A stretch of DNA of 64,000 bases. Origin: Lachnospiraceae bacterium (lineage in GTDB: Bacteria > Bacillota > Clostridia > Lachnospirales > Lachnospiraceae). The notes below the pieces were generated by a model. That model made no database searches. It was not told where the DNA came from and saw only the letters and a program-made list of their open reading frames with translations. The DNA lies in assembly GCA_017936785.1 (NCBI GenBank), contig JAGBEV010000028.1, forward strand, positions 1-64,000. Direction: 5' to 3'. Positions 35,899-45,970 of this stretch are shown in pieces (position 1 is the stretch's first letter; every line of letters begins with the position of its first letter). A program made the translations under genes and the position numbers.

Positions 35899-36165
35899 TA
35901 AAAAAAGCTCCTATCCCATATAGGGACAAAAGCTTGAAATTCTTCTGCGGTACCACCCTGATTGATAGTCTTTGACTATCCACTCGCTCTGCATACTCAC
36001 AATATGCACCCTCCTGATAACGGGCAGGGAACCCGTTGACGTCTACTCCCTTTCGGTTTCAAGTCACCCTCGCAAGTCCATTCAACCATTTCCTTCATAC
36101 TGCATCCCACCTGCCGCAGCTCTCTGTGATGTACTCCATAGCCTACTTCTCTTGCTCATCGGTTT
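35899..36165 (-). promoter_or_regulatory. T-box leader of the trp operon, Trp (UGG) specifier
   Basis: The minus-strand leader contains the invariant T-box AGGGTGGTACCGCAG (35959-35945) and a preceding stem I region. The specifier-loop candidate reads GAA-TGG-ACTTGCG, with TGG at 36080-36078, matching tRNA-Trp and fitting the downstream trp genes. Uncharged tRNA-Trp would stabilise the antiterminator. The terminator stem at 35935-35900 ends in seven T. The stem I limits are approximate. Confidence 0.93.
35900..35935 (-). terminator. Attenuator terminator of the trp T-box
   Basis: Minus-strand AAGCTTTTGTCCCTAT pairs with ATGGGATAGGAGCTT and is followed by a run of T. Its 5' arm overlaps the end of the T-box antiterminator region, as expected for a transcription-attenuating T-box. 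Confidence 0.88.
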
Positions 36166-36194
36166 TATAATGGTTTAACTCTTTAACTGAATAA

Positions 36195-42000: not shown

Positions 42001-44607
42001 TCAAATTCTTCCATCTATGATTTCCCGCACCTTTTCCTTTACATCTGCAACTTCCCGTTCAAATTCCCCGGCGGACACTCTCATGGCACCATGTCCCATA
42101 ATGATCAACTGCTCCAATCCGTCGGAAGTTGCCACTCTGACCCGGTGCTTACTTCCTATATCCTTAGTTACTTTTTCAATATACATATCCGCAGTCTCCG
42201 CCTCTTTGGTATAAACGACATGGATATTGTGATATTTCCCCACTTCTCCCATATTGCCCTTAACCTTATAGGCGTCAAATACAAGGATCAGATGGCATTT
42301 GGTAAAGCCCTGGTAATCACAGAGAATATCCATAAGCCGTCCTCTTGCTGCGTCCAGATTAGTCTTTGCCAGTTCCTTTAATTCATCCCATGCAAAAATA
42401 ATATTGTAACCATCCACTAACAAATAATTTTCTACAGGCATTACATTTTTATTCTTCTGTTTCCTGTAGTATTCCCCTGCATCCACGCTCTTTCCGCCTG
42501 CTACATACCTGGTATGGCTGCTGCCGTATTCCCTTCTTTTCATAGGACCGAATTCCCGCAGCATGATTTCTTCCAGCTCACGGTCAGAATACCCGCTGCC
42601 GTCTTTGCGATTCTCCTGTTTCTCCCTATTGACTTTTCTGCGTACTTTCTCATCAACCGTCTCCCCCGCTTTCCCGGAGACATCCGGCACATGACTGTCT
42701 ATGTGCATATATTGACGCACTTCATCCCACTTTACATAAAAACCGGCCCCATGGGCGCAGAAAACCGAACCTGTAGGGTTTTCCAGGTCTTCTTCACTAT
42801 CATATGCTGCCTGCTTTAGTACTTCCGGGGTATTATGACAGGGCTTGTAACCTGCAGCCTGGAGATTCATCCTTCCCCTTCCCTTTGTATAAGCAGCTAC
42901 CTGACTGACATAATCAATGGAAGTGGCTACCGGAATTGTTCCCTTTATCACAGATGTTTCTCCCGAAGTCCGGGGCGGCTCAAATTGACCGCTCATTCTC
43001 TGGATATCGCTCATTGCCCTGCCGATCTGTTCCGTAGGAACCTCCAGTTCAAAGGCATAAAAAGGTTCCAACAAAATACTTTCCCCGCTCTTTAACCCCT
43101 GTCTGACCGCACGATAAGTAGCCTGTCTGAAGTCTCCTCCCTCCGTATGCTTCAGATGCGCCTTGCCTCCAACAAGTGTAATCCTCATATCGGTTATGGC
43201 GGCTCCCATGAGCACACCGGGATGCTCCCGCTCCCCTAAATGGGTGAGGATCAGTCTCTGCCAGTTTAAATCCAGTTCGTCCTCACTTAAATCGCTGTCA
43301 TAGATCAACCCGCTTCCTTCCGGCAGAGGTTCCATCAATAAATGAACCTCCGCATAGTGGCGCAGAGGCTCAAAATGCCCCACGCCTTCCACCGCTGCAG
43401 CAATGGTTTCCCGATAGACAATGCTTCCCCTGTCAAATTCCACAGTTACCCCAAAGCGCTCTGAGATCATATCCTTTAGGATTTCAAGCTGCACCTTACC
43501 CATGATCTGTACATGGATTCCCTTCAGTTTTTCATTCCACAGCACATGAAGCAGAGGGTCTTCCTCTTCCAGTTCCCGCATTTTTGGCAGTATGACAGCC
43601 GGATCAGTTTCTGCCGGAAGAAGCATCTGGCAGGTCATGACCGGAGTTAATACGGGCTCTGGGGATTCCTCTTCTATTCCTACACCCTGCCCGGGATAGG
43701 TTTTTGCCGGTCCCGTAACAGCACAGACGCTTCCTGCTTTTACCTCACTTACAGTTTCATATCTGCTTCCGGAGTAAATACGGATCTGGTCCGCCTTCTC
43801 CCCGTTTAAGAGCTCTTTGACCTTGAGGTTTCCTCCTGTAACCTTCAGGTAAGTTAAACGATTTCCCTGTTCATCTTTTGCGATCTTATAGATCTTTGCA
43901 CCAAATTCAGAAGGATAATTTAAGTCACAGCAATAATCCTTCATTCCATCTAACAGTTCCCGAATCCCTTTCAGTTTTAATGCTGACCCAAAGAAGCAGG
44001 GAAATAATTTCCGCTCTGCCACCAATAGGGAAATGGTTTCCTTTTCCAGATACCCCTTTTCCAAAAACTCTTCCATGGCATTTTCCTCACACAGGGCTGC
44101 CTCTTCCATAAAAGAATCTTCTTCCGTAAAATCCAGAAGGTTTGCCGAGAGCCTGTCCCTCATTCCGGAAAGCATTTCTTTCCTGTCTTCATCAGAAAAA
44201 TCCGCGCCCAGCAGATCGATCTTGTTCATAAATAGAAAAGTGGGAATGTGATATTTCTCCAAAAGTTTCCATACAGTCTCCGTATGAGCCTGAATACCAT
44301 CGGTTCCACTGACTACCAAAATGGCATAATCAAGCACCTGCAGGGTTCTCTCCATCTCCGTAGAAAAATCCACATGACCGGGTGTATCCAACAGGGTCAT
44401 TTCCATCCCATCGGTAACAACCTTAGCCTGTTTGGAAAAAATCGTAATTCCTCTTTGCCGCTCCAGCCTGAACGTATCCAGATAAGCATCCTGATGGTCC
44501 ACTCTCCCCATGTTTCTGATCGTTCCGCTTTCATAAAGCAATGCCTCTGATAAAGTTGTCTTTCCTGCATCCACATGTGCCAGGATTCCCACTACAGGCT
44601 TTTTCAT
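42001..44607 (-). CDS. Tet(M)-like ribosomal-protection GTPase fused to a Rae1/YacP-type NYN nuclease domain
   Basis: An 868-residue two-part protein. Residues 1 to about 655 are an EF-G/Tet(M)-type translational GTPase: G1 AHVDAGKTT, G2 RQRGITI, G3 DTPGH, G4 NKID, then domains II-V, with an end (CAHGAGFYVKWDEVRQYMHI) that differs from classical Tet(M). A basic, charged linker (about 660-724) leads to a NYN/PIN domain (725-868) resembling the ribosome-associated endonuclease Rae1. Four acidic residues are in place: D732 (LVDGYN), D778 (VFDAYK), D807 (ETADMY) and D829 (TSDGLE). The start follows GGAGAATGTGTA. It lies between a zinc-ribbon membrane protein and pepF. The domains are clear; the joint function is inferred. 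Confidence 0.93.
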   Translation of the reverse strand: MKKPVVGILAHVDAGKTTLSEALLYESGTIRNMGRVDHQDAYLDTFRLERQRGITIFSKQAKVVTDGMEMTLLDTPGHVDFSTEMERTLQVLDYAILVVSGTDGIQAHTETVWKLLEKYHIPTFLFMNKIDLLGADFSDEDRKEMLSGMRDRLSANLLDFTEEDSFMEEAALCEENAMEEFLEKGYLEKETISLLVAERKLFPCFFGSALKLKGIRELLDGMKDYCCDLNYPSEFGAKIYKIAKDEQGNRLTYLKVTGGNLKVKELLNGEKADQIRIYSGSRYETVSEVKAGSVCAVTGPAKTYPGQGVGIEEESPEPVLTPVMTCQMLLPAETDPAVILPKMRELEEEDPLLHVLWNEKLKGIHVQIMGKVQLEILKDMISERFGVTVEFDRGSIVYRETIAAAVEGVGHFEPLRHYAEVHLLMEPLPEGSGLIYDSDLSEDELDLNWQRLILTHLGEREHPGVLMGAAITDMRITLVGGKAHLKHTEGGDFRQATYRAVRQGLKSGESILLEPFYAFELEVPTEQIGRAMSDIQRMSGQFEPPRTSGETSVIKGTIPVATSIDYVSQVAAYTKGRGRMNLQAAGYKPCHNTPEVLKQAAYDSEEDLENPTGSVFCAHGAGFYVKWDEVRQYMHIDSHVPDVSGKAGETVDEKVRRKVNREKQENRKDGSGYSDRELEEIMLREFGPMKRREYGSSHTRYVAGGKSVDAGEYYRKQKNKNVMPVENYLLVDGYNIIFAWDELKELAKTNLDAARGRLMDILCDYQGFTKCHLILVFDAYKVKGNMGEVGKYHNIHVVYTKEAETADMYIEKVTKDIGSKHRVRVATSDGLEQLIIMGHGAMRVSAGEFEREVADVKEKVREIIDGRI

Positions 44608-44630: not shown

Positions 44631-45872
44631 CTATCTTTTCCGAATCTTGATTACTGCCCAGTCATCCTCTTCCAAATGATATTCCCCGCCGCAAAAAGGA
44701 CAATAGCGTTCTCTTGTAGCATCAAAACTTCCGCCGCAGCCTGCACACTGTACTTTCCTGATGGAAAATCCAAAATCTGATTCCTTCTCCAGTTTTCTGC
44801 ATATTACCATGCGGAATATATCGGTCTTCTGATAAACTTTACCTTTATCATAAATGTCAGCCATATATACATCCAGATCAAGATAACAATATCCATTTTC
44901 GATCCACTTCTTATTCAGCCCTATGTATCCTCCATAAGCCGCTTCCACAATTTCAGAAAGATCGGGGATTTCCCCTTCTCCCTTATAAACCGTAAGTTCC
45001 TTAACATCCTCTGCAAAAATCATAATTTTTAAAAGACTTACGATTCTGCCTATAAAATATTCATAGGAAAAACTCTTATCATAAGGCTTCATCAGCCTGT
45101 TCAGCCGCAACTTCGTGCCTGCAGTCCTGAAAAGTCTGGGAATGTTTACTGCTGCAAAACCCAAAAGACTCATGAACATCCACATGCACATAGCCAAATA
45201 CCCCAGAAAAATTCCCAGTGGTATACTTCCCAAAAGATTTAAGAATATGGAAAATATCTTCCCCTGGATCAGGGCAGGAATCGTCCAGCACAGCCAGACC
45301 AATATGATCCCGCCTATCGCCCATTTTTTGATCCTGTTTTTGCTCTCTTTTTGATTCATAGAAAAATCATACTGAAAAAAGTAACCGGTTACCACAGGAA
45401 AGAGATCAGACATCAGAAATCTGGTATGACAATAAGGGCATCCGTCCAAAAGTACCTTTATGGAACTGACCGCACCGCAGCTGGGACAGCAATAGGTTTC
45501 ATCTATCTTTTGCTGTTCCATTTTAGTTATTGTCTGATAAAAATTCTGTGGTTTTTCTTTCTCATATACCTTTTTTTCATCACGCCAAAAAGCTGTTTTC
45601 TGTAAATAGCTTGAGAAAACAAACTCATTGGTATAAATCTGGTCTTTGTAGGTTTTTTGAAAGATCCGGTCCAAATGCTCTCCCCTAAGCTTCATCCGGT
45701 ATTCCATCTTAAGATTCCGTTCCCTGAGACGTCCTTTTTGCAGATCCAGATAATATCTGATATCCTGATTGCCCGTAGAAGGTGCCTCACCGCTCCTGCT
45801 CCACTCTTCCAGTTCATCAGTAAACTGCCTGAAGATCTTTTCATCTTCCGTGTTGTATGGTTTTGTATTCAT
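44631..45872 (-). CDS. Zinc-ribbon membrane protein
   Basis: A 413-residue protein. The start at 45872 (MNTKPYN) has GGGGG nine bases upstream. A charged helical N-terminus precedes a first zinc ribbon (CPSCGAV...CPYCHTRF). Two membrane segments follow (roughly residues 185-205 and 215-250), then a soluble domain and a second C-terminal zinc ribbon (CAGCGGSF...CPFCGGEY). I do not recognise the soluble domain with confidence. It is the first gene of a likely operon with the GTPase-nuclease fusion (23-base gap) and pepF. Confidence 0.8.
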   Translation of the reverse strand: MNTKPYNTEDEKIFRQFTDELEEWSRSGEAPSTGNQDIRYYLDLQKGRLRERNLKMEYRMKLRGEHLDRIFQKTYKDQIYTNEFVFSSYLQKTAFWRDEKKVYEKEKPQNFYQTITKMEQQKIDETYCCPSCGAVSSIKVLLDGCPYCHTRFLMSDLFPVVTGYFFQYDFSMNQKESKNRIKKWAIGGIILVWLCWTIPALIQGKIFSIFLNLLGSIPLGIFLGYLAMCMWMFMSLLGFAAVNIPRLFRTAGTKLRLNRLMKPYDKSFSYEYFIGRIVSLLKIMIFAEDVKELTVYKGEGEIPDLSEIVEAAYGGYIGLNKKWIENGYCYLDLDVYMADIYDKGKVYQKTDIFRMVICRKLEKESDFGFSIRKVQCAGCGGSFDATRERYCPFCGGEYHLEEDDWAVIKIRKR

Positions 45873-45970
45873 AAGCTCCATCCCCCATTCTTCATAAGTA
45901 TTCTTTTAAATTCTACTTTAATTCAGAGGCTCCGTCAATTCTGCCTTTGAACCGGTCATGTGCAAAGACG

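Follow-up and report, generated by a model that had tools for sequence, protein, structure and literature searches.

What does a bacterium gain from a single gene that joins a translational GTPase to a nuclease predicted to cut mRNA, and how did such a gene arise? The question is raised by a locus in contig JAGBEV010000028.1 of a Lachnospiraceae bacterium (GenBank assembly GCA_017936785.1), of which positions 1 to 64,000 of the forward strand are referred to here as the window. Its minus strand encodes, in one protein of 868 residues, a GTPase of the EF-G/Tet superfamily and a C-terminal NYN domain of the YacP/Rae1 type. We lean towards the view that this protein is a GTP-driven factor which would bring Rae1-type mRNA cutting to stalled ribosomes. 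This view is favoured by the homology to Rae1, the intact motifs of both parts, the conservation of domain IV, the single clade formed by the fusions and the empty rae1 site in the genomes that carry them.

Architecture of the fused gene

The original prediction, made from the sequence alone, described one 868-codon gene that couples a GTPase to an NYN nuclease domain. This description holds: positions 42001-44607 (minus strand) form one uninterrupted frame that starts with ATG and comprises 868 codons plus the stop codon, and Pfam models match both parts of its product (Table 1). The NYN match, expected somewhere between residues 725 and 868, falls within that interval and lies far above the cut-off of its model. 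Likewise, the four acidic residues singled out as nuclease candidates are invariant in an alignment of 120 full-length fused sequences, of which 118 are distinct. Based on homology to the solved YacP structures 5mq8 and 5mq9 of B. subtilis, which the NYN part matches with an E value of 4.5e-27, these four aspartates are predicted to cluster in the catalytic site of an NYN fold. On the GTPase side, the G motifs and domains III, IV and V were matched as claimed; domain II, by contrast, stayed below the Pfam cut-off. Across 63 aligned sequences the G-motif residues, H78 among them, do not vary, and the models for the GTPase domain, for domains III, IV and V and for NYN_YacP were all matched in the 10 of these 63 sequences that were scanned with Pfam.

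Conservation, expressed as mean frequency of the top residue within the fused family, is highest in domain IV (0.84), followed by the NYN core (0.77), and drops to 0.43 in the linker between the two parts. In 87 of the 120 fused sequences this linker contains a motif, EL..[IM][FLM].R (residues 677-690; window 42538-42579), which is possibly a docking helix. The C-terminal extension that precedes the linker is common to fused and unfused GTPases and absent from the aligned Tet proteins. Two conserved cysteines within it, C590 and C617 (CHN...SVFC.HG; window 42700-42849), make up a possible metal site.

That the fusion is an artefact of a frameshift or mis-assembly, or else a decaying gene, is a reading we give practically no credence. 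Broken or contig-split copies do occur in a few genomes (G042, G095, G098, G140). However, both parts are present in all of the 80 named loci, which rank highest among 587 confirmed relatives, and in all nine genomes of the genus to which the window belongs, its own included, and the catalytic residues are invariant. Because relatives carry both parts, the artefact reading is refuted, and an erroneous joining of two genes, named by the original prediction as a hazard, can be dismissed.

Distribution, origin and the empty rae1 site

The spread of the fusion was mapped in a sample of 150 genomes of the family, representing 149 genera, for which PF05991 matches and GTPase matches were compared by eye. 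PF05991 matched in 135 of them, and 123 have the NYN and the GTPase match together in one open frame. These 123 include two frames cut at contig ends (G006, G098), one with a frame break (G140) and one that is short of domains (G135, see below). GTPase and NYN reside in separate frames or contigs in two genomes (G042, G095), and ten contain a stand-alone NYN frame (G007, G016, G020, G024, G029, G054, G059, G068, G099, G128), five of them with an unfused GTPase beside it (G024, G029, G054, G059, G099). The stand-alone frame of G128 probably represents a fusion cut by the end of a contig, given that its match begins inside the linker, right at the contig edge. The remaining 15 genomes have neither part, their best GTPase match being at the level of EF-G. 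Among the 125 genomes with fused or split copies, 122 have a single PF05991 match; the second match is in the same frame in G130, below the cut-off in G076 and on a contig-edge fragment in G039. Beyond the family, PF05991 matched in 161 of 245 genomes of a class sample and in 180 of 348 genomes of a phylum sample; among the matches listed for the latter, stand-alone length predominates and frames as long as the fusion are in the minority. The named loci include representatives of Dorea, Faecalicatena, Faecalibacterium, Butyricicoccus, Oscillibacter, Intestinimonas, Anaerotruncus and Caproicibacter.

Some copies reside on unusual records. Fused genes are present on large records listed as plasmids in Monoglobus (518 kb) and Agathobacter rectalis (252 kb). 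An NYN domain with about 65% identity is encoded on two 'Bacteriophage sp.' records that come from human faeces and lack annotation (MT835563 and MT835514; H21 and H22); they represent either phage or bacterial contamination. An NYN gene is also found on L215 and 11 more Clostridioides difficile records of PLSDB that are listed as plasmids; L215 contains cysS, a gene with an RNase III domain, thyX, rlmB, the NYN gene and secE, and thus resembles a piece of chromosome.

The fused genes have one origin. In a tree of 55 GTPase rows, all 29 fused rows form one clade (support 100/100), nested in a clade of 45 rows (100/99) whose other 16 members are unfused GTPases about 640-655 residues long; Tet proteins and a third group of GTPases fall outside. 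The bootstrap of this tree had not fully settled, and L003 (poor match) and L172 (truncated frame) were left out of it. In a tree of 61 NYN rows (56 distinct), the 34 fused domains also form one clade (95/82), joined by L133, which stems from the contig-split copy of G095. This clade lies inside a group with 100/100 support that contains the stand-alone Rae1 proteins of Lachnospiraceae, the Clostridium-type and B. subtilis Rae1 being placed apart. The simplest reading of both trees is a single fusion event.

In B. subtilis the gene order is cysS-mrnC-rlmB-rae1-sigH. Where Lachnospiraceae possess a stand-alone NYN gene, yacP directly follows rlmB in seven of ten loci and is located elsewhere in G059, G391 and G020. 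Fifteen genomes with the fusion were searched for rlmB, and 13 rlmB regions were examined (G117 and G350 were left out); within a distance of three called genes from rlmB no yacP was found in any of these 13, and in nine the next called gene is sigH. The genome of the window belongs to this type, with rlmB followed by sigH at a distance of 67 bp, and its one PF05991 match is the fused gene itself (assembly of 66 contigs, contamination value 8.77). To the question, raised by the original prediction, of whether stand-alone rae1 is missing from fused genomes, the answer is that none was found in the window's genome or beside rlmB in the 13 regions examined. Exceptions with two PF05991 matches are G285, G350 and G390, which belong to one genus, and G282. 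Given the empty site and the single match, the fused gene appears usually to be the only Rae1 found in its genome. The arrangement rlmB-sigH without yacP is also present in three of four genomes that have neither gene.

In G370, unlike in the other single-contig fused genomes, rlmB and the fused gene share a strand and are about 5 kb apart, the fused gene being downstream (C1:4605893-4608427, 4613153-4613872). This arrangement is possibly a hint to the birthplace of the fusion, or else due to chance.

Relation to Tet proteins, EF-G and Rae1

The original prediction had labelled the GTPase part as a ribosomal protection protein of the Tet(M) type, and this label found no support. With Tet(M) and Tet(O) the protein shares the domain order G-II-III-IV-V, domain II being weak here, and about 30% identity. 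It differs from them by another loop III, the C-terminal extension, its own clade, a score far below the cut-off and the extra NYN domain. Against the NCBIfam model tet_protect, whose cut-off is 775 bits, it scores 398.2 bits. Three fused relatives reach 392-426 bits and two unfused ones 393 and 442 bits, compared with 853-1001 bits for three Tet proteins of related genomes that carry the YSPVSTP loop. The loop III sequence KHTEGGDFR is exactly conserved in 119 of 120 fused sequences and takes the form KHT[ESCN]GGDFR in the unfused relatives; in the alignment, Y507, P509 and V510 of Tet(M) are opposite H484, K486 and H487. Pro-509 of Tet(M) is described as located in the drug site (PMC8161019). 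Loop III has been called key, yet a Tet(M) S508A/P509A/V510A mutant is reported to be able to be active (PMC4750697), and for this reason the loop III argument is suggestive rather than proof. EF-G resembles the protein in domain order, and H484 at the tip of domain IV lies opposite the histidine of the EF-G HEVDSS loop; it differs in that the protein under study sits on a separate long branch, lacks the VDSS loop and possesses the C-terminal extension and NYN. The tree places the GTPase in a clade of its own, separate from Tet.

A role in tetracycline resistance as a ribosomal protection protein, possibly with the RNase activity contributing, nonetheless deserves consideration. Among relatives of known structure, Tet(O) and Tet(M) rank first (241.7 and 240.2 bits), although they barely surpass EF-G (237.6 bits); a role in resistance has been suggested in print (PMC4342817); the A. 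rectalis copy bears a Tet name in RefSeq; and the activity of the triple mutant implies that the letters of the loop are not decisive. By contrast, the score, the loop and the separate clade all speak against this role, as does the presence of the fusion in 123 of 150 genomes sampled at the genus level, which is not a sporadic distribution. Moreover, a further match, as long as a Tet protein (643-644 codons) and with 31-33% identity, is present in 11 fused genomes of the family; in G138 and G088 it was confirmed as a Tet protein by its tet_protect score. We thus consider resistance a quite improbable function, and it was rejected as the best reading on score, loop III and clade. On the same grounds, the proposal that the protein might clear drug-bound ribosomes is left without positive support.

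The fused gene of A. rectalis (L214:3634-6435, on the 252-kb record) is named TetM/TetW/TetO/TetS tetracycline resistance protein in RefSeq; judged by the features above, this is probably a misannotation. A third group of Tet-like GTPases (L173, L187, L202, L203, L204; about 33-37% identity) forms its own clade (100/95), and the tip of its domain IV, H[TS]...DF (HTHPLDF in three of the five), is neither that of Tet nor that of EF-G.

The original prediction knew of no experimental description of such a protein. This remains correct inasmuch as we found no functional test of the fusion in the literature; the architecture itself, however, was reported in silico in 2015. Atkinson (2015) describes the gain of a YacP-like NYN RNase domain by Tet proteins of ten Clostridiales species, for which a function in resistance, or a test for cleavage of rRNA, is proposed (PMC4342817). 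A search of titles and abstracts turned up no naming of the fusion beyond that report. Our protein almost certainly belongs to the same group, as it combines a Tet-like translational GTPase with a YacP-like NYN domain in Clostridiales. While the ten species are treated there as Tet, we find the fusion in 123 of 150 family genomes, apart from Tet, with one origin and associated with the absence of rae1. Single origin, empty rae1 site, loss of the Rae1 tail and a variant without domains IV and V are what we add to the earlier account.

The nuclease part is related to Rae1 of B. subtilis, which is described as an A-site mRNA cutter (PMC12320835, PMC6613710). Common to both are the NYN fold (by homology), the four aspartates and 45% identity over the domain. 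Stand-alone Rae1 has about 170 residues, whereas here the domain is part of a protein of 868 residues encoded outside the cysS-mrnC-rlmB-rae1-sigH locus. Another difference concerns the C-terminal tail with R165, before which our protein ends. This tail is present with R165 in all 26 stand-alone rows (22 distinct genes). By contrast, 48 of 120 fusions lack it, and an arginine occupies the respective column in 45 of 120. On a FastTree tree, tail loss requires nine changes, at least six of which fall on well-supported branches. In B. subtilis, the loss-of-function suppressor mutations include a substitution of the neighbouring residue, R166P (PMC6613710). These observations fit, but do not prove, a model in which the anchoring role of the tail has been taken over by the GTPase.

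Proposed mode of action and surroundings of the gene

EF-G-like factors are ribosome binders. Based on the architecture we propose that the GTPase part in its GTP form would dock at the factor site of a stalled ribosome, where domain IV would reach into the decoding site. In the A site, the mRNA would then be cut by the tethered NYN domain, GTP hydrolysis would release the factor, and the shortened message would allow the ribosome to be freed via trans-translation or a similar rescue pathway. Ribosome binding, A-site cleavage, control by GTP and the order of the steps are what we infer. Eukaryotic no-go decay, in which Hbs1/Dom34 and the Cue2 endonuclease combine a GTPase factor with A-site mRNA cleavage on stalled ribosomes, offers an analogy in mode of operation only; the domains are unrelated, they reside in separate proteins, and no homology is claimed.

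A variant encoded in G135 (L261:1358-3400) bears on the question of which parts are needed. It consists of one stop-to-stop frame of 690 codons, or 661 residues from an internal ATG, and comprises the G domain with domains II and III, together 43% identical to residues 6-392, followed by NYN (63% identity). Domains IV and V and the C-terminal extension are absent; the G motifs and the four aspartates are retained. No other architecture of this type was found among the listed matches of 61 genomes. If the variant is functional, GTPase core plus NYN would constitute the minimal unit.

Several points weigh against GTP-driven delivery of the nuclease. The variant just described comes from a single genome, and its gene may be decaying. 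Loss of the tail could mean an altered nuclease function instead of a new anchor. Domain IV and NYN hardly fit the A site together, so that a hand-over between them must be assumed. The absence of both parts from 15 of 150 genomes implies that the system is dispensable in the family, and no conserved neighbourhood suggestive of ribosome rescue was found, the best cluster being present in 11 of 80 named loci. Finally, among the matches listed for the class sample, an unfused GTPase occurs in 14 genomes, and seven of these show no NYN, which implies that the GTPase can act without Rae1. This last observation makes an independent GTPase the main rival: an EF-G-like elongation or rescue factor that acts alone, for example by translocating or splitting stalled ribosomes, and carries NYN as a passenger that is co-expressed and kept near the ribosome and cleaves without control by GTP. 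Such a factor would agree with the long and variable linker and with the loop III type and C-terminal extension shared by the unfused GTPases. It is less easily reconciled with the single origin of the fusion and its retention across many genera, or with the loss of domains IV and V from the G135 protein, which kept GTPase core and NYN; altogether, it is an alternative to be taken seriously, if not the one we would choose. Alternatively, the GTPase might carry NYN to ribosomal particles for the maturation or decay of rRNA or tRNA. The ancestral position of rae1 next to rlmB and mrnC points in this direction, whereas Rae1 itself, the characterised homologue, is described as a cutter of mRNA; we therefore regard processing as rather unlikely.

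Co-occurrence of the unfused GTPase and stand-alone NYN was considered as 'Rosetta stone' evidence and not used. Among the non-fused family genomes five have both, none the GTPase only, five NYN only (G128 being one of them) and 15 neither (Fisher test, 0.0047, uncorrected for kinship); the class sample, with the seven of 14 genomes mentioned above, displays no link.

A more far-reaching version of GTP-driven delivery is tempting, if doubtful. An unnamed subfamily of GTPases with the KHTEGGDFR tip might deliver Rae1 to the A site as a GTP-gated mRNA nuclease, with NYN being able to replace domain IV. In Lachnospiraceae, Oscillospiraceae and their relatives it would have replaced stand-alone Rae1 and would serve as a main factor of ribosome quality control, not of drug resistance.

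Features of the gene and its upstream neighbour are compiled in Table 1. The two genes possibly share a transcript. A promoter-like site at 45938-45910 is a consensus match only; scans for promoters and terminators performed near chance. The upstream gene was not found as a conserved neighbour in the 80 named loci, and no conserved operon partner was detected there: the commonest neighbour family occurs in 11 of the 80 loci and the pepF neighbour of the window in three. No leader or RNA regulator of the fused gene was found at Rfam gathering scores. Elsewhere in the window, the Rfam scan revealed a T-box leader at 35919-36168 (minus strand, 118.5 bits) and one tRNA.

Table 1. Positions in the window of the fused gene, its domains and predicted catalytic residues, and the neighbouring gene
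Feature	Position	Strand	Basis
Whole gene: EF-G/Tet-superfamily GTPase fused to YacP/Rae1-type NYN	42001..44607	-	
G domain, residues 5-225, G motifs present	43933..44595	-	GTP_EFTU PF00009, 4.3e-51, 173.6 bits
Domain II, residues 237-301, weak	43705..43899	-	PF22042, 18.7 bits, under Pfam cut-off of 27
Domain III, residues 322-391	43435..43644	-	EFG_III PF14492, 7.2e-07
Domain IV, residues 395-507	43087..43425	-	EFG_IV PF03764, 1.9e-14
Loop III of domain IV, KHTEGGDFR, residues 486-494	43126..43152	-	In place of Tet YSPVSTPADFR; alignments with TetO/TetM and Tets of related genomes
Domain V, residues 512-593	42829..43074	-	EFG_C PF00679, 1.1e-20
C-terminal extension, residues 587-636, GY.PCHN...SVFC.HG...W	42700..42849	-	Alignment
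Variable linker, residues 637-726	42430..42699	-	67-124 residues in relatives
NYN nuclease domain, residues 729-862	42022..42423	-	NYN_YacP PF05991, 4.5e-49, 167.1 bits, cut-off 24.6
D732 (D7 of B. subtilis Rae1)	42412..42414	-	120/120 aligned sequences
D778 (D53 of B. subtilis Rae1)	42274..42276	-	120/120 aligned sequences
D807 (D81 of B. subtilis Rae1)	42187..42189	-	120/120 aligned sequences
D829 (D104 of B. subtilis Rae1)	42121..42123	-	120/120 aligned sequences
Upstream neighbour, no Pfam match	44631..45881	-	23 bp from fused gene, same strand

Our analysis contributes to the description of a gene that is widespread in Clostridia; Faecalibacterium and Dorea, both familiar from the gut, are among the genera that carry it. 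The Tet name attached to at least one RefSeq copy is probably wrong and could inflate counts of resistance genes. As a natural fusion whose GTPase, nuclease and domains can be switched off separately, the protein would make the recruitment of Rae1 to particular ribosomes directly testable. If GTP-driven delivery is true, a nuclease-carrying GTPase would be added to the repertoire of bacterial ribosome rescue.

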